Source: Tetramitus jugosus
Lineage: Eukaryota; Heterolobosea; Eutetramitea; Acrasida; Vahlkampfiidae
DNA length: 64,000 nucleotides
Reading direction: 5' to 3'
Assembly (NCBI GenBank): GCA_937625935.1
Contig: OW569349.1
Coordinates: forward strand, 124,001 to 188,000
Shown here: positions 10,123 to 48,998 of the stretch, piece by piece
Layout of the letters: each line of letters starts with the position of its first letter
Numbering within the stretch: position 1 is the first letter of the stretch
Program-made: the position numbers and the translations under genes
Notes under the pieces: model-generated
Told to the model about the DNA's origin: nothing
Seen by the model: the letters and a program-made list of their open reading frames with translations, nothing else
Database searches by the model: none

Positions 10123-13100
10123 TTATTTTTTCTTTGGTGCAGGCTTCTTTTGTTCGACTACAGCTTTTCTCTTGTCCATCATGGACCTGAGTCTTTGATT
10201 GTAAACCCAGGCCTTCACTAGATCTTCATAGTCCAAGTATCCCTTCTTATCTCTGTCAAGCTCGTCAATCACTTCTTCGACTTCGTTGTCTGGCATATCG
10301 TCAAGCTTTGATCTGCTCATCACCTGTTTTACATTATCGAAGCTCAAACTGGCTCTACCGTCTTGTTGAGCGTTAAACTTCTTGAACAGACGCTTCATGT
10401 CCTGACAAGGAGTATCAATACGGTAAATATTCTTCCACTTATCGTCATCTGAGCTGTCAGCTTGGATAGGGCTCTGATTTGCTGCAAAGAATCTATCCAC
10501 AGCAGGTGACATGGACTTCCTGAAGAACAATTCCTTCTCCACTTCGATATTGAACTTGAATCGCTTCACAGCATCTAGGAGAGCATCTCTGATCAAGTCT
10601 GCCTTTTCTCCACAGTCCAACAAGTAGCACTTCTTTCTTCCCTTGCTCCAGAAGTTGATATACAGGATATTCTTGCTCTCTGGATCAACATAGAAGCTTT
10701 GAAGTGTGCTGTATGGAATTTCTCTCTTGATAATCTTTTCACTAAAGTTCAAGACGGAATCAGTAGTCAACTTGAGCAGTCTCTTTTGCAACTTGCCCTT
10801 CTTGTTCTCCTTTTGTACCATGAATGTTTGCAACAGATTCAAACTGCTGCTACGGATACCTGCATCATAAATAGCCTCAACAATCACATCTCTCTGTTGT
10901 TCAGTGTAACAGCTGTACTTTCTTGTTTGAACACCAATGGCAGCGTTCGTCTTTAGGAAGTAACCAGCACCACGGTTCATGATTTCTTGTTCCGTTTCTG
11001 GCAAGAATTTGACCAAAATTTCGTTAGCTCCCTTCTTGGCTCTAATTTCCTGAATTCTTTGAAGCATAATCTCATTCTGGACAGTACCAGCCTTTGGATC
11101 AATATTCAACAGAGATTCATTTGTAATCTTCATCAATCTCTCTTGCTTCTTATCATTGTTGTTAATCTTGATCATGTTGTACGTGATTGGGACAAACTTC
11201 TTGCTGACGAACGGAATCCAAATCTTTGGTGGTTCAATGAAATCAGCCAAATCAGTCCAGTCATGAGCCGTCTTCAATAGCTTATTCTTTGTCTCAGCAC
11301 TCATAATGTTCAAAATGTCCTGAGCAGCATTCATGGTCTTAAAAGTAGGATGCAAAATGACAATATTGGCACAGTTGGCCAAATGTTGAGGTGTCATCAA
11401 TCGAGTAAAACTGACAACAGCACGATAGAACAATGCTTGTAGTTCATCGTTCAAATCAGCCCAACTGAGATCCACGACGAACACATATGGATTGTTCAAA
11501 TCCTTGCCAATCGTCTTGAAAATGTGAATCATCAATCGATCATTCTGCTCCAAAAAGTCTTGCTTCACTCTGTGCATCACCAAGTAAATGGTTGGTACGT
11601 TGGTTCTGGTTGGCTTACCAATGTACAAGAATCGAGATGCATCGAGCTCTGTCAAATCGAACATGTCAATCTTCTTCATCAAATTGTCCAATGATCTCTC
11701 CAAGATGGTTGCTTCAATCTCCTGGAACGTCTTACCCTTCAAATTTTCTCTCTTCTTGATTTTGCTTGCTTCTCCAGTGGTTGGTGAAGATGGCTCAGTG
11801 GTCTTTCCCTTGAGAGCAGTGCCCTTCTTTGGAGTGGCCTTCTTGGATGAAGGAGACTCGGCAACAGCGGCCACAGGTGCCTTTCCTGATGCATCAGGTG
11901 GTGGACCCAAATCTTGAATCAATGCCAAGAAATCAGTCTCGGTGGAAATGATACTGACAGGACGCTTGTCATGAGTCATAATGACTTCGTTCTGCAAACT
12001 GACAATCATCTCATAACCGTACTCGTAAATCATTTGATGAATAAACAACAAGTCCTTCATGTCAAATGTCTTGTAATGAATATCTTCAAAGGTGATTGAT
12101 TTTTGGAGGTCATGGAATGGAAGCCTTCCCTCATACTGTTCCGTATCTTGTGGCAACTGCTTCAAATAAGCAGAGAGCTTAATTTGATTCTGTTCAATAA
12201 ACTTGTTCAGTGGCATGAGATGCGGAGAATCAGTCTCGTACATTTCACCGTTGGCCAACTTTTGCAAAACCTTGGCAATCAAGGTCAAATTCTTTCTCAC
12301 GTTTCCATCGGGCATCTTTGCACAAATGTCCCAACCGTTTGGCAGTGTGATACATGGACAAATGTAACGAAGCATAATGAAACCACTGAGCAATGGAAGA
12401 ATAATGGAGTCAAAATCAAGCTTATAAATCTCACCATTGTCAATCATAAAGTAACAAATGGCTCTCAGTTCACGAGGCATCATATCAATCATGGTCGAAT
12501 TGACGATACGATCGACAAACGACTGACAAATTTTTTCAATCATTTTCAAATTTTCCTCCACTCTTTCATCTAGGTTCTCACCAGTAATACGACTATTATT
12601 TTTCGTTCATTTCAAGTGTTAGCTTTTTTTGGTTCAAGAGCTTTCACAAGGTGTGTGTGTTTTTTCAACAACAGAGCAACAACACAAACAACAGCACAAC
12701 ATCAGCTGTATCAACAAACAACAACAATAATAAAAAACACACAGTCTTCATACCTCTTGTCCAATTCTAGGTCCATATTTGGCTTATCATACAAATCTCT
12801 AATCAAATCACCAATCAGTGTGTTCAAATATTTGGAACCAACCGTCTTGGTATACTTTCCCATCATTTTACTCACAATAGAGTTCACTCTGAGAATGGTG
12901 AATGGATGAGATTGCTTTCTATCGAACTCTAGTCCAATCAATGCCTTTATAATACTTAAACTGGCCTTAATTTCATAACTGAGACCACACAGTGCATCTG
13001 CTAGCTTATCATGTTGAGATGGCGCAGTTACATCAGCCAATGCCTTTGCATATCTACACCATGTACACATGTTTTGTTTCCATATTCATTCCGTCATTCA

Positions 13101-32760: not shown

Positions 32761-35700
32761 TTAGATTTGCAATCCTGCAGCATTCAAGTAGCCTTGCAAT
32801 TGTTGTTGCTGGGTTGTCAATAGTGAATTGATGCCATGCATGATGAGTTGCTTGGTGTTGTTGTCAGCAGAGCTCAGAGTTGAATGGAGAACTTGTGCCA
32901 AGTGGATCCGTGCATCTTGGACATCACTGGCAGGATCTTGCTCAGATTTGGAAGCAAAAGACAATTTTGCAAAAGCAACCTTGTAGCCGGCACCAGACTC
33001 ATCTTGAACAAAAGAAGGTGCTTCTTGCTCTTCCTCCTCGATGATATCTTGTTGCACATTCTCTGGCACTTCCAGCAGGTTCAAATTCTCCTTGAGCAAC
33101 AGAGAGATTGTATTTCCAGCATCAGGTGAAGCAAGGTACAATGGTTCAAATGTTAATCTGGTCAATGCAACAGAGCATGTCTTTCTTTCCTTCTTGCCTG
33201 ATATCTTTGGAAGACCTGCCAACCACACGTTCTTTAGAATTTGAGAGAAAAGACCGGCTTGAATACCCTCAATGACAGAAATGATTGATGACGCTCTGTG
33301 CTTAATTGTAAACAGAGAGAAGAACAAAACCAAGCATCTCTGGAATTTGATCGTCTTTCTGGTTTGTAGTCTTGCAAACAAGATGGAGAAGATTTGGTTA
33401 AAACTTGCGCTGATGATGTCCTTTGGAGCATGCAGAATAACAGCATCTAGGATAACAAATCCATGGTGGTCGTGACTCTTCGTGTTCACAAGCTTTCTAA
33501 AGATTCCAAGGACCTTATGCAAGTTTTCTTGCTTCATAATTTCAACTTTGTCCTTGGCCAAAAATCCAGTGACCATGTTGACAAGACCAGGAATATTACC
33601 TTCGTTGGACCACAAATTAAAGTCCAAAATTCGAGGCAGAAGCTGTTGGTACTTATCTGGGATTGGAGCTGGTCGCAACTCTAAGAGTTGAGAGAAGATT
33701 TGGAACACATATGGAGTAAACTCTTGAATATCACTCTCGAGAATACTCATAAAGGCTGGGAATAGCGCATTTTCGAATGCCTCAACAAATTGCGGATTAA
33801 ACTTAATTACCGTAGCATAGGACTCGAAAATAAAATGGTTGAAGATAGGGTTCCTGATGTTCTTACAAACAGCAGCCAGAATCGATGTAATCTTCTCAAT
33901 ATATACTCCCATTAATTGTGCCATCTCCTCCCTCAATACAGCAGTAACTCTCATAATCGCTTTCATAATATATTCGTTTTCAGTTGATGATTCGTACTGC
34001 AAAGCACTAAACAAGTTGGTCAGCAATTGTTGAGTGTATTGCTTAATGTCGTCCTTTGTATATCTGGATTGTGTTTTTTGATCAGGAGTTGTGTCCTTCA
34101 CACTCAACATCTTCTCAATGCACCATGCAGCGTAAGTATGGACAACTCTTTCCTTTGATGTCAACACATTGACGACCAATGGGAAGAATTGGTGGAACAG
34201 TTCCTTTGATAAATGTTGTCTAAAGATACACAAGAACTTTAGCGCATCAGCCTTCACAATAGGCAAGCTATTGACATCTCGATTGGACAGTTGAGGCAAA
34301 ATTTGATTCAACAAGAAATCGTGAACAGGTACCAATGGATTGATTTGAGTGGCACCTTTACCTCGTGTTTGTCCCTTGACTGACAAGGCTGTGACCAAGT
34401 AGATTGCTACATCCAATGGTTGCCAATTATCAGGACTAGCCTGACCCAACAATTCGCCAACCTTACGAACAAAGATATTGGTCACTTGTGATTCGTAGTG
34501 GATACAGAGGCCTCTGATCAATTCACTCGCAGCTCTTCTTCTCGTCTCACTATCTGATCCTTCAATGTCTCTTCTGATGTATTCGATTGGGTCGTCCTCA
34601 AACATTTCAATATCATCTTCTCTCAGTGTTACATTCGGTACGATAATGCGTTCGCAAATGGTTGTAATGGTTTGTTCGTTGAGGAATGATTGCTTTCCAC
34701 CTCTGCTAATGGTTGTCAGGAAGGAGAGAGCCTTTGAAACAAACTAATTGATCACGAAAAAAATAACATAAAAACAAGCAGGTGTGAGAACAACAATACA
34801 AGAAGGAAAAATGCAAAATGGTTTCGAGAAAGACATACGCGATCGTGCTTCACAGTCAGTGACGCCTTGGACAAGAGATCCCAGATATCAGCAGCAAATT
34901 GAGGCAACAGTTTCTCAAATTCCTCATCATACTTTTCCAAATACAAGTTCACAATTTCAGTGATCAATGACTTGCTAATGTCCAACAAGCCTGCTTCACT
35001 ATCGTCATCACTCGTCTCTACAAACACGTTGGAGTAGATGAGGATACCGTGAAACATGGAGAAGAACTCGTTCATGTGATCTTCGAAAAACTCTGGCAAA
35101 TCAACCCAGTTCAACGAATAAAAAATTTGAAGCAAGAGATTAATATTGTCGAAAATGAGCTTGATAACAGCTTCGTTTTGAGAGAATTGAGCATTGTTCA
35201 ATGTTTGATAAAATGAGGTAAACAATTGAAGCATTGGTTGAGCAAATTGTCCAACAATGTACACCAATTCATTCTCAATCTCATCTGTCTTGCTCTGATC
35301 TCTATACTTTTTGAAGATTGAGTTTGCAGTGAGCAATAGGCATCGAATCACTTGAAAATCATTGGTTGCCATTTTGCTGATCAATTCCTGCTCATCACAA
35401 CAAGTCATTTAGAAAAAAAAAAGCGCGTGTGAGCACACAAACACATGACATGAAAAACAAACAATAAAGGTACACTCCAAGTTGAGACATACAGGCAACA
35501 ATTGAGGCCACTTTTGATGGAAATCATATTCACAAATAATCGAAATCATTCCTGACATTTGAGTTTGAATGTTACCAGTTGTCGACAGCATCAAATCCAA
35601 TGCATTTTGTTTGATTTGAGCTCTCTCTGGTTCCTTCAATTCATCTTCATTCTCCCACTTTGTTCTCACAAAGTTCTTTAGTGCGAGTGCACCTGACAAT

Positions 35701-35997
35701 CGTATCTGAGGTGGTATGGACTGATTCTTGACCACTGCCATGAGAACAAGGGAATAATTGGGTGTTTTTTCTGCTCCTTTCAATTGTGCTTCAGCTATAC
35801 ATGTGATTATGAATTGTTTTGTGTGTGAGTGAGTGAGTGAATGACATGTATTGATGTTGAGATCAAAACGAATTCGAATGATCGATCATAGCTAAAAATA
35901 ACAACAACATACCATTCTTTCTCACTGTTGGATCAGGGTTGAGTGTGTGCTCGAGCAGTTGTGCTAACTGCATCACGTGCTCTGTTGGGACTTGCAT
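32761..35997 (-). CDS. CSE1: Exportin-2 (CSE1/CAS), importin-alpha re-exporter
   Basis: HEAT-repeat exportin that returns importin-alpha to the cytoplasm with RanGTP. Exons on the minus strand are 35997..35913, 35794..35493, 35387..34839 and 34743..32761; all three introns (118, 105 and 95 bases) have GTATGT donors. The product is 972 residues, the same size as human CSE1L (971). The importin-beta N-terminal domain covers about 5-110 (LEHTLNPDPTVRKNAEAQLK, then IRLSGALALKNFVRTKW). The Cse1 core has KWPQLLP, VKHDRFVSKAL and the hallmark FEDDPIEYIRRDIEGSD (about 360-380) with RRRAASELIRGLC. The CAS C-terminal domain fills the rest. Every splice junction falls inside a conserved helix and keeps frame, so the model is firm. 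Confidence 0.96.
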
Positions 35998-36198
35998 TCG
36001 ATCTTTGTGTATTGTTTTTGTTTTTTCTTTGCTCAATGTTGTTTTCCTCCAACGATGAAGATCAATTTTCGTCCACTTTTCTCCGCTTATTTCAAAAAAC
36101 AAATTGAAGTTTGAGGTTCGGAAAGTTTTGTGACAACGCCAAATACAACAGATGTGGTATCGACGTGTGGTTTTTAATTTTCCTCAAAGTTTATCTGT

Positions 36199-39041
36199 TC
36201 AATCTTTACAGTCAACTTTCCATTCCTCCACAATCCCATCAGGTCCGATTATCGTTGTTTCGGACTCGGATTCTTTCTGTTCGGTTGTGGCAGGTTCTGT
36301 GGGAGTTGACTCAATTGAAAGTTTGGTGGTTAGTGAATAACTCTTTTGATTAATTTCTGTTTGAACATGAATGGCTTCTTGGGTTTTGTTAGTAGCCATC
36401 AATTGTTCATGTTCTGATAGTGCTAGAAGTTGTCGCTCCTCTTCAGTCGTTTTATGCATATTGTCAATCGTTGGCTCGAGAGAAAATTCTAAGTCGATTT
36501 TCTTTTTAGCTCTGTACTTTGTTTTTGAAGATTGAATTCTTTGGATTAGTGGTGCTGCTTCATGAGAAACAGTTACCTGAGTAGGATCTGACGAGTATCT
36601 AGTTGTAGAGTCCAAGTTAGCGTGTTTCGACTTTGGGAATTTGAGTGGCTGAGGACGATATTTAGCAATGTACTTCCTCCAAAATCTTTGAATCTGTTTA
36701 GCAGCTAAATCTTTTCTTTGATGGTCCTGTTCTTTCTGGTACTTCTTTACCAGATATTGCCTTGCATTATTCTGTCGCTCAAGCTTCTCCTTCTCCAATT
36801 GCTTTAATCTTTCTCTGTCCTTTCGAGCAAATAGTTCCTCCTGATTCTTTTTGAACTCTTCTATCTGCTGTTTCTCCTTTTCTCTTTTCTTCCTATCGGA
36901 TTCTTTTCTCCTTCTTTCCTTTTCTTCTTTGGCTCTCTTCTCTTCTAGTTCTTCTTGATGTTTTCTTTCCAACTCTCTCTTCTGCTGAAGTTTATACTCT
37001 AGTATTTTCTGGTTCAATTCCTTTTGTCTCTTTTCTCGTTGTAACATTTGTATAAAATCCCATTCTCTTTTCAGTTTGTCCTGCTTCTTCTTTTCCAGTT
37101 CTATTTGCATTTTGTGATGTTGTATGGCCGAGGAAACACCCTTCTTCTCATCCAATCCACTTACAGGTGGTCCATGATCTATTCTTGCCATTCTTCTCGC
37201 TTCTTTCCTCTTCCAATGTAGCTTTCTTCTTTTGTTGTTTTTCTCAACCATCTTCGATTTTGCTGCTCCTGAAATCACTTCATCGATCATCTCCTCAATC
37301 ATATTGAGACAAAACAACGCTGTGGCCCTTTGATTATGTGAGAATTTCGTGAAGAACCTTTTCTCAGAACATTTAGGTCCAGAGAACCTTTTTGTTCTGT
37401 CAGAATATCGCCTGTTCTCAAGCGCCGAAGTTCCATCCCCTTGATGGATAGTCTGGTTGCATTCTTCAAGATAAATCCCAACCGAAGAAGTTATAATATC
37501 ATTCAAAATTTCAGAGATTATCTTTTGAGGATCCTCATGCTCCTCTGATAGAATGGAATTTGTTGATATCTTCCCTTCCCTGTTGCACAAACTGAGTTCT
37601 TCTAGATATGTTGATGAACCCTCTTTTCGCTTAGTCCTCTTGTATTGATTTCGAAACTTTTTCTTAATTCGCTCTTCTCTCTCTAATTGCTTCTCTTTCT
37701 CCACTCTCTCAGCTTCTAATTTCTCTCTTCGTTCTTTCTGAATTCTACCAATTTCAAGTCTTCTCAAACGTAGCAACTTTTTTCTTGGCTCAAGTGAGGA
37801 GTTGATGCTACTAGTGTCTCTTCTTCGCTCCGAACAAGTGGTTGGTAGAGGTTCGCTTTTTGTTGAGTGATTATCTTCAGGGATTTTACCCTCTGAAGTC
37901 CTCATTATTTGTGGCAATTTAGTAATCTCGTACCTATCATCCATCTCCTTTTTTGAACGGATATGAGTGAGAACATCATAATGTCTCTCGACTTGATCGG
38001 GAGGATATTGAACGTCTTCAATCCATGTATGAATCCCGGGGTAAGAGTTAATGACTGGGATTTGTTCGATAGTGCCTAACTTCGACACTCCCAATTGATT
38101 TGAAACTTTCATCAATGAGATGTCATCATAGCCATGCATTGAGTAAAACCTTATCTGAGTGTCTTGGATGATATCACACAGGTCTTCGTTGATTGACTCG
38201 ATACCTAAATGAATAATCTTTTGAATGAGGGTAGTTAATAACCGTTTATCAAATGGAGATCTAAATTCATTCTGATCCCCAATTTGATATGTGCTTCTCA
38301 AGGTGGTGGTTATAAAATCTGAAAAGAAGGTTCTTAATTGGTGATTGGCTGAGAACTTCTTAACAAGAACGCTCAAGATTGTCAAGGAGCAGTCAAACAA
38401 CATATTGTCTTTGACACAGATTGTTAAGAATCGATCGGCTAGTAGTATGGCGTCGTGAATGTTTAAAGCTTCATCACAAACAACGGCCATCAAAAACTGA
38501 AAATCTTCCATAGTTAATCTAGTATTCATTGAAGTCCTAGAGTTTGACATGAATTAGTTTGGCAGAATCTCCGATGAGAAAAGTGCTCTCCCTCTATCAT
38601 CACATACTCTAAAAAACATTTGATGAGTCTCGTTACTGGAAAATACTCCATCGAATGCAACATTCCGATAAAATGAGAAGTCAATTGGTTTCGAATGAAG
38701 TCGTCAGAGAAATGGTAGGATAAACTCGTTAAGAGAATGGTGTAGATATGCTGATAGTTCCTATCCCTGCTTATTATTAACTCTCGCATTACTTCGAACA
38801 GAGCTTCATGAATGGGATACAACTGAGAGATATCGTTTTTCAACACTATAGCTTTTTCAATGGATGAGAAGACAATTTCGATTGCTGATTGATCAAACGC
38901 CAATTCCTCCGTGTTTAAACTCCAAATGTACTCCACAATGGTTAACATATTTTCTTTCACTTCCACCTCTTTCATCTCATTCACCTTCACTAGAATGTGT
39001 TCGATGATTAAAGAAATGGTCTGGTAGGGTTCTCTTCTCAT
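36199..39041 (-). CDS. Large helical protein with coiled coil and IQ motif
   Basis: 923 residues. Exons on the minus strand are 39041..38608 and 38536..36199; intron 38537..38607 has donor GTATGT and acceptor TCTAG, and joins two helix-rich segments in frame. Residues about 1-270 are helical and may be an ARM/MIF4G-like fold. Then come two highly charged Lys/Glu/Arg coiled-coil stretches (about 365-425 and 590-745), and an IQ calmodulin-binding motif (AAKQIQRFWRKYIAKYR) at about 745. The tail is Ser/Thr/Glu-rich. Proteins of this build are often cytoskeletal or ciliary, but no family is recognised, so the function is unknown. Confidence 0.78.
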
Positions 39042-39928
39042 TTTTGGTTTTTGTCAGGGTTTAATCGGTTTTTCAACCCATAAAATCCTTGAATTTTTCA
39101 TTCTTAATTGAACGTTCAGTGATGACACCATCTCTATCTCATAAAGACTTTCTGAGCTGAGAACAACCTTAAATCAGTTTCACGGACATAGTCCCGTTTT
39201 AAGATAACAAAAGGAACAAACAAGTTTGGATATCAAGGGCCGCGAAGTAAGTAGATGTCTCAAGAAACAAACTGAAGCCTTGTTCCGATAGTTACTTCGA
39301 TCATCGGTATTGCAAAAAATGCTCATTTGTTTCTTAAGACGAACAACAGGTGAAATTTTAAGAATGTTAAATTACAGGAAGATTGCCAAAGTGATCCAAA
39401 CTCGATATGACCTTCAAAAGTGGTATCATTCAATGAGACTTCGACTGTTGATTCACATTGTTAGCACCGAATTGAACACAACATATCAGGTGCATATCAT
39501 CGTGTATCACGATATGAGTGAGAGCTTGGAGACGTTGCGGATGCAGATGCATCCAAACAAGCTCGAACTCTTTGTCAGGTAGCCGAGACGATATTGAAGA
39601 ACACGAAAATGGTTGCTAACTCCAGAGTGCCTACCAAATGTCCAAAGGTGCACTTCTGTGCCATCGGGCTATTCTTCAATCTCCAAGGCAAGACTAATCA
39701 ACAGATGGTCAAGAAAAGGCTATTGCTAGAAGAGCCAATGAACGTCTCCAAGTCTTGAATCATTAGACCCAGCAATTGCTGTGCCAGTGGATGAATAAGG
39801 AGCTGCATCAAACAAAGGGATTCATTTATGTCATCAGATTCAGGAGCTGTTTCTCTCCAGGAATGTAAGATAGTCATATGTCGAGATTCGCAATGTTGGT
39901 TGCAAGTCGCTGCAATGGAACACAAAAA
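39042..39928. other. Gene-poor stretch with decayed coding-like pieces
   Basis: No intact gene is supported. A plus-strand frame (39310..39582) ends in an amino-acid pattern that looks protein-like (LLIHIVSTELNTTYQVHIIV), and a minus-strand frame (39698..39925) follows directly downstream of a LINE fragment. Neither has an ATG-to-stop organisation with recognisable domains. Both could be remnants of genes or of the retroelements next door. Confidence 0.35.
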
Positions 39929-40470
39929 TCATAAAGGAGTGCTAGGGTCACACTGCATCTCTTCGCTACTGGGTCCCATTAACCCTGCTAAGATTTCTTC
40001 GGTGGTTCGACTTGGGCTTAGTGGTACCAATTTCCCGTCATCGTATACCCCTTCATCGAACCATATCATTAGCTTGGCTGGTCTCATAAACTCCAGCATG
40101 TCCAATTTGGCTTTAAATTCCTCAACCAGTTCTTTTCTTACCCTTTTGGCTTCAATCTTTCTAGGCCAAAAGGACACTTTAGAAATTCATTCCACTCTTT
40201 TTCTATCTGTAATTCAGCCTCCAATATCCATTCAGGAACTGATTCTATCGATTTTGCCCTCACGAAGTGTTCCACCTTCTCTGACATTTGGGTTGCTCAA
40301 AACTTTGTCACCCACAGACACTTCCGAGTGTCATTCGGTGTTTGCAGCTCCTTCCATCTCTTCAAGGTTTACCAAGAATTTTCAGATAAGCTCTTGTCCT
40401 AGAGTAGCTTGCTGGGTCAATGCCCTTCAACTGAACTTCCTCCTTCCTCTTATGGGATGAGATATTGCTC
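39926..40470 (-). mobile_element. Decayed LINE-type retrotransposon 3' fragment, copy 2
   Basis: On the minus strand the sequence codes, across a frameshift, for EWNEFLKCPFGLERLK and then KELVEEFKAKLDMLEF, WFDEGVYDDGKLVPL and TTEEILAGLMG. These align to copy 1 at 40.7-41.2 kb (NNFLKRPFGLERLWF, SKLVEELKVKLDKLSL, WFEDVLYVSGKI, TPEGTLEGLME). Between FGLERL and KELVEE about 180 bases present in copy 1, including the zinc-knuckle, are missing, and the reading frame changes there. Stop codons interrupt the upstream part. Boundaries are approximate. Confidence 0.65.
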
Positions 40471-40477
40471 GATTTTT

Positions 40478-41243
40478 TTTCCATACAACGTTTGTTGCCA
40501 CTTTATTCTATACACTACTTACTGTGAGTCATGATTCCACTCGTCACCGTCTGAGCAGTGTTTCACTCCTCTGCGCGACAGAGTTAATACATATCTTGTA
40601 TAGTGCCTTGATGCACGACCTCTTGATTGAGTCAATGACTCCTTATCTTTTGCTCTGCTTCTCTGCTCTTCTTACCAGAGAGCTTCATTTCGTCCAGGAG
40701 TTCCTCCTAGAAATCTCCTTCATTTTCCATCAGTCCCTCCAGCGTACCTTCAGGTGTTCGCTTAACATTTCGTGGTTGTATCTTTCCACTCACATACAAA
40801 ACATCCTCGAACCATATAGGGGCCTTGACAGAGTCTGGCAGACTCAACTTGTCCAGCTTCACCTTCAGCTCTTCAACCAACTTGCTTCTTGCAATTCTTG
40901 CGAGTTCGCACTCCACGAGTAGATGCACAATGGTTTCTGGAGCTTTGCAACAGTGTGTGCAAGTGACATCGAACAGAGGATTGTACAACTGTCGAACGAC
41001 AGTCCGTGTGTGGAGAGTTCCACTTCTCACCTGATGATAGAACCAAAGTCTTTCTAGACCAAATGGGCGCTTGAGAAAGTTATTCCTCTCCTTATCTTGC
41101 TGCAATGCAACCTCATGTTTTGAGATAGTATCACTCCTACTCATTGAGAAGTGATCAGCCAGTTCCTTCCTGACGTTATCCTCAACAAGCCCTCTACCAC
41201 TTACAGACACTGAGACCTTTTGCTGCACGGTTCTCCGAGCCAC
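40478..41243 (-). mobile_element. 5'-truncated LINE-type retrotransposon fragment with zf-RVT domain, copy 1
   Basis: A 178-codon open frame (41243..40707) without an ATG start codes for the C-terminus of a non-LTR retrotransposon polyprotein. LWFYHQVRSGTLHTRTVVRQ leads into CTHCCKAPETIVHLLVEC, the C-x2-C..ET..H-x4-C zinc-knuckle found after the reverse transcriptase in many LINEs (zf-RVT type). After the stop comes about 200 bases resembling a 3' UTR, containing AATAAA and then a run of eight A near 40480. Upstream of 41243 the frame is closed, consistent with the 5' truncation usual for LINE copies. No reverse transcriptase core remains. Confidence 0.68.
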
Positions 41244-42301: not shown

Positions 42302-42371
42302 TCGATAACAGATAGGGGTAGCATTCCAGACTGTCACTCTGGCGACCCGGGTTCGATTCCCGGTGCTCGAG
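42302..42371 (+). tRNA. tRNA-Asp(GTC), possibly degenerate
   Basis: The 3' half is a perfect tRNA: anticodon stem CCAGA/TCTGG around loop CTGTCAC (anticodon GTC, Asp), T stem CCGGG/CCCGG around TTCGATT (the internal B box), and an acceptor strand TGCTCGA. The 5' half is poor: TCGATAA pairs at only five of seven positions with the acceptor strand, and the D stem (GATA/GCAT) hardly pairs. A TTTT run follows four bases later. It may be a diverged gene, a pseudogene or a 3' half fused to other DNA. Confidence 0.5.
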
Positions 42372-47561: not shown

Positions 47562-47861
47562 ATGGTTGAAACAAGAAAGGCAACTCCAGCAATTAACAAC
47601 AATCTGCTCCCACAGGAGAAACGATATCAAACATTGAAGGAAAACAGTGGGGATCATTTTCTCTCAGGGGACAACCAGGGTATGAAGAGAACAGGATCTC
47701 AAAATACGATGGTCACACTTCATGCATCTGAAGTACCTGAGATGAAACATGAGACATACCGCGAGTATCCACCTCGACCAAGAACACCGGATATGGACAG
47801 CTTTATGCCATCGTTTGACGATGTTCCTGTCTTTCTTCGCAAGAATAACTCCAAACTTTAA
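47562..47861 (+). CDS. Small uncharacterised protein (99 residues)
   Basis: ATG-to-stop frame of 99 codons in a proper gene setting: it starts 138 bases after the RWDD2-like stop and is followed 12 bases after its stop by AATAAA. The product is hydrophilic, rich in Pro, Arg, Glu and Met (for example YREYPPRPRTPDMDSFMPSF), with no transmembrane or signal sequence and no known domain. It looks disordered, perhaps a small cytoskeletal or microtubule-associated protein as many Pro/Arg-rich flagellar proteins are, but that is a guess. Confidence 0.55.
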   Translation: MVETRKATPAINNNLLPQEKRYQTLKENSGDHFLSGDNQGMKRTGSQNTMVTLHASEVPEMKHETYREYPPRPRTPDMDSFMPSFDDVPVFLRKNNSKL

Positions 47862-47872
47862 GAAATACTCTC

Positions 47873-47878
47873 AATAAA
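47873..47878 (+). other. Poly(A) signal AATAAA of the small gene
   Basis: AATAAA 12 bases after the stop codon, supporting the reality of the 99-residue gene; it is only 33 bases before the oppositely oriented tRNA terminator. Confidence 0.5.
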
Positions 47879-47910
47879 AAATTTTCTCTTTCAGAGAATT
47901 TGGCGAGGAC

Positions 47911-47914
47911 AAAA
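47911..47914 (-). terminator. RNA polymerase III terminator of tRNA-Leu
   Basis: On the minus strand, TTTT follows the tRNA discriminator base after three bases, as expected for RNA polymerase III termination. Confidence 0.75.
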
Positions 47915-47917
47915 CTC

Positions 47918-47997
47918 TGACGAGGGCGGGATTTGAACCCGCGCCCCGAAGGACTGCGGCCTTAACACAGCGTCTTAGACCACTCGACCACCTCGCC
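47918..47997 (-). tRNA. tRNA-Leu(AAG)
   Basis: On the minus strand the sequence folds as a class II tRNA. Acceptor GGCGAGG pairs with CCTCGTC (one G-T pair), the D arm contains GGTCGAGTGGTCTAAGAC, anticodon stem CTGTG pairs with CGCAG around loop TTAAGGC (anticodon AAG), a long variable arm TCCTTCGGGGC follows, and T stem GCGGG pairs with CCCGC around TTCAAAT. The discriminator is A, as in leucine tRNAs. No intron. A TTTT terminator follows. Confidence 0.95.
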
Positions 47998-48028
47998 ATC
48001 TTACTAAGTACTCCGAAAAGAGCAATTT

Positions 48029-48042
48029 AGAGAATTACTTAA
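48029..48042 (+). repeat. Target-site duplication, left copy (AGAGAATTACTTAA)
   Basis: This 14-base sequence is repeated exactly at 48306..48319, flanking a segment that ends in a long A run. This is the signature of target-primed retroposition. Confidence 0.85.
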
Positions 48043-48170
48043 TTGGTGAAGAATGGAATGAAGTTAGAACTAGCCCATCGCAAGGCACGAAGCTTTGTTA
48101 GTTGGGTAAAGAGTCGCTGCATCGTTACTTTGCACAAACTCTACCAGCAATCAAAAGACTACAAACAGCA

Positions 48171-48191
48171 GTAACGCTCTCCGAGCGTTAC
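48171..48191 (+). other. Hairpin 1 in retroelement 3' UTR
   Basis: Perfect 9-bp stem GTAACGCTC / GAGCGTTAC with a TCC loop, starting directly after the element's stop codon. Its core CGCTC..GAGCG is shared with hairpin 2. Confidence 0.85.
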
Positions 48192-48206
48192 TGAAAGGAA
48201 AGATAA

Positions 48207-48227
48207 GTGCCGCTCTTCGAGCGGCAC
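48207..48227 (+). other. Hairpin 2 in retroelement 3' UTR
   Basis: Perfect 9-bp stem GTGCCGCTC / GAGCGGCAC with a TTC loop, 15 bases after hairpin 1. 3' stem-loops are recognised by the reverse transcriptase in stringent LINEs, so this may be a template recognition signal. Confidence 0.85.
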
Positions 48228-48305
48228 GGTGAGAATAAGAGAAACGATTTGAAAGAATGATACACAATAAATTGAGCAACTACGTGTTGTATTAAAAAAA
48301 AAAAA

Positions 48306-48319
48306 AGAGAATTACTTAA
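48306..48319 (+). repeat. Target-site duplication, right copy (AGAGAATTACTTAA)
   Basis: Exact repeat of 48029..48042, directly following the A run of copy A. Confidence 0.85.
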
Positions 48320-48340
48320 AAACTGAAAAAACGCAACCCT

Positions 48341-48998
48341 ATGTCTGGTGATTCAACAAAATTGGTGGAAGGAATACGGCAACATAGATTTCTCAGGGAT
48401 AGAAAAGTCCTGATCGAGGTAGAGCCACGCTGGTGGTTACCAGCTGTGGAAATGCAGCAAAAGAATCAATTTGATTTCCTAAAGAACCCCTTGATAGAAG
48501 TTTGCAGTGGTTTCATGCACAAGTGCGTAGCGGAACACGAAGGTCGTTTGTAATCGCCTCTACAACGACGATAGCCAGACCTCAGCCCAAGATGTGGGAC
48601 TTCGTCTGACACCATCCTCCACTGTTTGGTCGGATGCAAGTACGCTATTGATGCACGTAAAAAACTGGTAACCGAAGTTCACAACAAGTAATTAAAAATG
48701 CCACTGCACCGAGGGTCCACTGTCAACGTGGTTCGACAAGGTGAATTTCAGGAAGGTTTTCTCTGGCCGACACAGTGAAGAGTAGCAAGGAGTACCTCTG
48801 TGGGATGATGGGCATTGAAAGTGAAACCCTTGATCAAGTAATGGACGCGTTGATTAAGAATGGGATGAATCAGGAAACCACCCATCACAAAGCACGCAGT
48901 CTTGCGAGCTGGGTGAAGAGTCGTTGTATCAGTACGATGCACTCTACCAGCTGACGAACGACGAATAAAGAGCAACTCTGCATTGTATTAAAAAAAAA
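48341..48998 (+). mobile_element. Retroelement copy B and related decayed coding sequence
   Basis: The right part (about 48780..48998) aligns with copy A: KNGMNQETTHHKARSLASWV and KSRCISTMHSTS match copy A's end, and the 3' end GAGCAACT..TTGTATTA plus nine A is the same. It extends further 5' than copy A (SSKEYLCGMMGIESETLDQV). It lacks the two hairpins. Left of it, 48341..48553 is an open frame (GIRQHRFLRDRKVLIEVEPR) and the following bases are interrupted by stops. This may be older, frameshifted parts of the same element or another gene remnant. No target-site duplication was found for copy B. The left boundary is a guess. Confidence 0.55.

Follow-up and report, generated by a model that had tools for sequence, protein, structure and literature searches.

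A short retroposed insert close to the 5′ end of a tRNA-Leu gene of Tetramitus jugosus raises the question of whether it came to lie there by chance or belongs to a family of elements that is directed to such genes. The gene, a tRNA-Leu(AAG) on the minus strand of the window (the whole stretch of 64,000 nucleotides analysed here), was placed at 47917..47998 by ARAGORN and at 47918-47997 by Rfam (RF00005, 53.2 bits), its 5′ end being at 47998 or 47997 depending on the program. The insert, a 5′-truncated copy of a non-LTR element of family A1, occupies 48043..48305 on the plus strand as judged from genome matches and tblastn, and is divergent from the tRNA gene, starting 45-46 nt from the tRNA 5′ end, in agreement with the ~45 bases, outside the tRNA gene, given in an earlier sequence-only reading of the locus. 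By alignment and tblastn its first 126 nt encode the last 42 residues of ORF2, the remainder being 3′ UTR with a hairpin, here termed hairpin 1, at 48169..48193 (+; CAGTAACGCTC / GAGCGTTACTG), and it terminates in TATT followed by an oligo(A) tail of 12 residues read from the sequence at 48294..48305 (+). The right copy of the target-site duplication (TSD) follows directly, with AGAGAATTACTTAA present as an exact 14-nt direct repeat at 48029..48042 (+) and 48306..48319 (+), and this pair belongs to the sole direct-repeat family detected within 47800-48500. The 263-base, coding, 5′-truncated and A-tailed retroelement end with a perfect 14-bp duplication on both flanks that the same reading had described is what the locus holds, made up of the ORF2 C-terminus, 3′ UTR and A12. 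The first base of the left TSD copy lies 31 nt from tRNA-Leu and would mark the first-strand nick.

Just past this insert, and absent from the earlier reading, sits an older copy with an internal deletion, oriented like the insert (approximately 48325..48998, +), in which the element 5′ end (to ~48384) is fused to a 3′ part of ORF2 (aa 1073-1263 in two frames) followed by an A-tail. Its 5′ end is common to the copy at locus L015 (89.8% over 59 nt) and lies ~50 nt from tRNA-Leu once the 277-nt later insertion is subtracted. The second tRNA gene of the window, tRNA-Asp(GTC) at 42302..42371 (+), has its closest element homology 1047 nt upstream, with a decayed remnant of an element lying upstream of it in divergent orientation at 40638..41114 (−; ORF2 aa 1090-1249, 39%). 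Further decayed fragments, A2-like and in the orientation opposite to this remnant, lie at 39502..39932 (+) with no Pol III gene assigned to them.

A DNA search of the T. jugosus genome (26.3 Mb, 56 contigs) with the window insert as query gave 44 matches, the insert itself counted and several of them being pieces of single copies, with the nearest other fetched copy differing from the insert at one of 263 positions. A SINE reading, in which the matches have a common start, was dropped since this start is set by the truncation of the query and other copies extend into ORF2. ORF2 sequences define at least four families, A1 (with the window copy), A2 (68% to A1), C (~50%) and D (~47%). ORF1 is 360, 372 and 421 aa long in the three copies read, and ORF2 is 1,274 aa long in L021 with open frames of up to 1,318 aa elsewhere, the stop of ORF1 overlapping the ORF2 start codon in L010 and L021. 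Pfam found a clear reverse transcriptase domain in the L021 ORF2 (RVT_1, E 7.3e-29) and a weak endonuclease match (Exo_endo_phos, E 1.5e-4, 22.1 bits, under the Pfam cut-off of 24.5), with no RNase H among the matches for this protein. A CX2C...HX4C stretch spotted by eye close to the ORF2 end may be a zinc-finger-like motif. The element has the reverse transcriptase, A-tails, 5′ truncation and TSDs of a non-LTR retrotransposon, together with a sub-threshold endonuclease match. The closest protein relative among the best 120 of 281 matches (P0146, on a 3118-nt contig) is 62% identical over 29% of the query, with the remaining matches listed showing 22-36% identity and the few named organisms among them all being animals. 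Ranking of PDB sequences placed R2 proteins at the top with 8c8j, an RNA-directed DNA polymerase that we take to be human L1, beneath them, an order that says little on clade.

ORF1 was modelled with AlphaFold2 on the basis of three sequences (mean pLDDT 64, block means 79-88 for residues 41-160). The model predicts two beta-alpha-beta-beta-alpha-beta units, at residues 37-109 and at 116-175, followed by a long helix at 183-233, the modelled units being RRM-like, with tandem-RRM proteins as the best Foldseek matches in the PDB (E 2.9e-05 and weaker, query TM-scores ~0.2). In the folded 3′ UTR two hairpins are followed by a short terminal one ahead of the A-tail. Comparison of 20 copies gave a single clear compensatory pair, which lies in hairpin 2 (C-G in 11, A-U in 8) and makes a hairpin structure likely, supporting no more than that. 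The 5′-truncated copies at L022, L027, L033 and L036 start within hairpin 1, a possible site of stalling or stopping of reverse transcription, this being an impression from four copies.

Thirty-seven stretches around copies were fetched, the tRNA genes called there and in the window numbering 30, of 16 isotypes; the loci were picked for holding copies, so that these 30 genes are not a random sample. Reading away from the tRNA gene, the first element homology lies at 43-49 nt in 16 of the 30 (in L037 by a single weak match), at 50-78 nt in 6 and at 116-1047 nt in 5, with element homology absent upstream of the other 3, one of which has only 501 nt of upstream sequence. Two or three serial copies in the same orientation are present per gene at L011, L013, L016, L018, L025 and in the window, demonstrating repeated insertion at single Pol III genes.

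An exact-match scan for TSDs (at least 12 nt, right copy at an A-run) around 32 Pol III genes, comprising the 30 tRNA genes and two 5S genes, yielded 25 pairs upstream, at 17 of the 32 genes, and none downstream by the identical scan, though there is less element sequence downstream. The TSDs are 12-18 nt long with their first base 23-42 nt from the gene (29-33 nt in 16 of the 25, 36-42 nt in 6, and 23, 23 and 27 nt in the other 3), the starts at 36-42 nt lying about one helical turn farther out than ~31 nt. The A-tail blurs the exact end of a TSD by at least one base, and the A-rich 12-nt pair at L015 may be due to chance. At L011 two TSD pairs have one common left copy and at L012 (tRNA-Met) two pairs have a nearly identical left copy, as would be expected in each case if a single site had received two insertions. 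A preferred distance, divergent orientation, 5′ truncation, TSDs of 12-18 nt and A-tails are thus shown, the genes used being tRNA genes of many isotypes and two 5S genes. The targeting of tRNA genes, formerly proposed from one insertion, is now supported by homology at 43-49 nt in 16 of 30 genes, by 25 TSD pairs upstream with 0 downstream and by an orientation that is almost always divergent where a Pol III gene is known on the 5′ side of the element.

For the genome as a whole, a list of Pol III genes was drawn up by position from a B-box pattern (GGTTCGANTCC) and from Rfam-scored tRNA and 5S genes. The pattern gave 243 matches as against 24 for its reversed form, and at least 217 nuclear matches (best 100 of 118 in one list) were used, 8 mitochondrial ones having been removed; with at least 53 tRNA and at least 47 5S nuclear genes scored by Rfam (the scored part of more candidates) the merged list came to at least 290 genes. 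The 39 ORF2 matches merged into 36 loci. By coordinates alone, at 17 of these 36 the list places a Pol III gene no more than 4 kb away, on the 5′ side of the element and divergent from it, as against 0 loci with a gene on that side but oriented like the element, 3 with one on the 3′ side in opposite orientation and 1 with one on the 3′ side and oriented like the element. Random placement in the known contig spans gave a mean of 1.1 and a maximum of 6 in 2000 trials against the 17 observed. The habit is common to several families, because 11 of the 17 loci hold elements from families whose ORF2 is only 42-48% identical to that of the query.

Addition of 19 genes found only in the fetched loci brought the 5′ divergent arrangement within 6 kb to 22 of the 36 ORF2 loci (other arrangements 0, 4 and 2) and to 38 of the 44 3′-end matches (other arrangements 1, 6 and 2), these extended counts being raised by denser gene finding since the added genes come from copy-selected loci, which leaves the 17 of 36 unaffected. 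Viewed from the gene side, 34 of 290 genes have an element or reverse transcriptase match within 5 kb upstream and divergent, with 4 upstream in the same orientation, 5 downstream opposite and 3 downstream in the same orientation. No known Pol III gene is at the expected place for 14 of the 36 ORF2 loci and 6 of the 44 3′-end matches, and no other Pol III RNA was found by Rfam (E up to 0.5) beside the copies in nine loci without a tRNA gene. The list lacked 17 of the 30 tRNA genes and both 5S genes of the fetched loci, so that many copies with no Pol III gene may be explained by gaps in the list, and some may be off-target. A scatter of copies bearing no relation to tRNA genes, which would speak against targeting, is not what is seen (38 of 44 matches), with some copies having no known Pol III gene nearby.

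Several further features of the assembly were seen in passing. Weak or partial reverse transcriptase matches lie a few kb from contig starts (C3:2089-2301, C17:2337-2549, C1:4436-4678 and C22:2739-3068), and five weak genomic matches have the profile range 106-164 in common; those near contig starts are perhaps a subtelomeric retroelement family. A second group of matches, limited to profile ~55-205 and with mostly shorter open frames (C16:366236, C15:386571, C30:32495 and others), probably represents other retroelement types. Contigs C54 and C56 have tRNA genes and COX1 at identical places (e.g. 12773-12844, 35286-36629), and the mitochondrial genome seems to be in the assembly twice; among the 120 matches listed, COX1 of the mitochondrial contig is 68% identical to that of Pleurostomum flabellatum and 65% to that of Acrasis kona, the only two given with an organism; both are heteroloboseans, which supports a heterolobosean host.

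Insertion is not confined to tRNA genes, with 5S genes identified by Rfam adjoining two copies, at L017 and L034. At L017 the element junction is 42 nt from the 5S gene with a 13-nt TSD at 29-41 nt, while at L034 homology begins ~51 nt from the gene and no TSD was found by the exact scan; an element identified by protein match at C10:118797 is 74 nt away from a 5S gene. Counted on their own, 5S genes give 2, 0, 1 and 0 of 47 in the four gene-side arrangements, which are small numbers. The targeting that was proposed earlier for tRNA genes is to be widened to 5S genes. As 5S genes, which have a different internal promoter from tRNA genes, are also hit, a shared initiation factor is the simplest cue, and the elements probably respond to the Pol III initiation apparatus rather than to tRNA sequence. 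The 5S rRNA genes themselves (47 scored of 772 candidates) appear to be dispersed across many contigs, mostly as single genes and not gathered in one array.

It is very likely that insertion in this non-LTR lineage proceeds by target-primed reverse transcription a short way upstream of Pol III genes. The element complex would be held by a Pol III initiation factor that tRNA and 5S genes share, TFIIIB being the likeliest, with the APE-like endonuclease (for which the Pfam match is weak) nicking the tRNA-sense strand ~31 nt upstream and sometimes at 36-42 nt. The A-tail of the RNA would then anneal at the nick for ORF2 to copy the RNA, and the second strand would be cut 12-18 nt farther from the gene. 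Recognition by the endonuclease of a motif upstream of tRNA genes, making a protein tether unnecessary, is a very improbable substitute. APE-type endonucleases may show sequence preferences and T or C is commonest at −1 in 15 of the 19 nicks examined (out of 25 TSD pairs), yet the information content at −30 and −31 of the 30 tRNA leaders is 0.01 bit, no nick-aligned column is strong, those adjoining the nick being confounded by the A-tail, and the two 5S genes are hit at roughly the same position. Moreover the 44-nt leaders show no relation to one another across the 30 tRNA genes (mean identity 0.296 against 0.275 when shuffled), and leaders as unlike as shuffles equally contradict segmental duplication of a tRNA gene with its element, whereby one event would have been counted repeatedly. 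Near-identical element bodies at some loci would suit such duplication, but the 30 genes are of 16 isotypes, the TSDs differ between genes and the element breakpoints differ, leaving it next to no credibility. Random insertion, with selection in a compact genome sparing only the copies by tRNA genes, is likewise extremely unlikely: it accords with the small genome (26.3 Mb) and the ORF-dense window, but leaves unexplained why 16 of 25 nicks fall in the narrow range of 29-33 nt, why there is a single orientation and why such sites hold near-identical copies (window, L009, L010 and L011).

For the tether itself, TFIIIB is the likeliest candidate, its usual place fitting ~−31/−45. TFIIIC or Pol III itself could serve instead, both also working at tRNA and 5S genes, and this is unlikely without being negligible, the narrow window at ~−31/−45 suiting the position of TFIIIB. 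Ty1 offers a precedent for targeting through Pol III subunits (PMC10050235; PMC5006619), while in vitro data suggesting an interaction of the TRE5-A ORF1 protein with TFIIIB subunits (PMC5006619; PMC5911963) argue for TFIIIB over these two.

The element is a non-LTR retrotransposon directed to Pol III genes, a kind known from dictyostelids. TRE5-A and the other TRE5 elements of Dictyostelium discoideum insert ~44-54 nt upstream of tRNA genes (40-54 nt in a review table) in opposite orientation with TSDs and oligo(A), and also 37-42 nt upstream of 5S genes (PMC5911963; PMC5391098), and so resemble the window family in non-LTR type, TSDs, oligo(A), orientation and 5S use. The resemblance in distance that had been noted at the outset extends to the family, with 43-49 nt at 16 of the 30 tRNA genes (and 50-78 nt at 6) against 44-54 nt for TRE5, and the behaviour of the two is nearly identical. 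They differ in that here the copies read have an ORF1 whose stop overlaps the start of ORF2, and in that several families of 42-50% identity coexist in one heterolobosean genome. TRE5 ORF2 has APE, reverse transcriptase and a zinc-finger-like motif; of these the reverse transcriptase is clear here, the endonuclease match is weak and the CX2C...HX4C stretch, seen by eye, is a candidate for the third. The non-LTR element NLTR-B of Polysphondylium pallidum inserts 39-64 nt upstream of tRNA genes; NLTR-A of D. purpureum, also a non-LTR element, lies upstream as well but at 2-6 nt (PMC5006619; PMC5911963). Both carry RNase H, unlike the L021 ORF2 as matched in Pfam. TRE3 of Dictyostelium is a tRNA-directed non-LTR element, but lies 40-150 nt downstream in the same orientation (PMC5911963), in contrast to the upstream, divergent insertions here. 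The LTR elements Ty3, Ty1 and DGLT-A likewise have Pol III genes as targets, which Ty1 and Ty3 reach by way of the polymerase or its factors (PMC5911963; PMC5006619), but they use an integrase and insert at other distances, in contrast to the A-tails and 5′ truncation seen here. The tRNA-directed non-LTR elements in the table of a 2018 review are from dictyostelids only (PMC5911963), and among the literature matches listed, judged by titles and the starts of abstracts, there was no such element outside dictyostelids or in Heterolobosea. An origin independent of TRE5 seems likely, the likeness to TRE5 being one of behaviour.

The 5′ ends bear on how the element may be transcribed. Five copies judged 5′-complete (L010, L011-B, L013-B, L015 and the older copy of the window) start 0-27 nt before the first ATG, and the start of L021 is compatible with these, its exact position being approximate. 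A promoter in the 5′ UTR is unlikely because these copies start almost at the first ATG, and there is no room in the five for a long 5′ UTR, in contrast to TRE5-A, the 5′ UTR of which has an A-module promoter. With 5′ ends near the ATG and ~45 nt from a divergent Pol III gene, capture of a promoter is possible, in which the target would double as promoter and transcription of the element would start in the leader that it shares with the tRNA gene, an arrangement that would have evolved in Heterolobosea independently of the dictyostelid elements; we regard this as rather doubtful. If true, targeting would be promoter capture as well as the finding of a safe site.

The stacked insertions, each with its own TSD, form a record of the order of events and a map of nicks that can be compared with TFIIIB footprints. 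The similar distance, shared orientation and use of 5S genes in T. jugosus and dictyostelids would have one of two histories behind them: elements of a second supergroup converged on the same Pol III surface, or the tRNA-directed lineage is much older.
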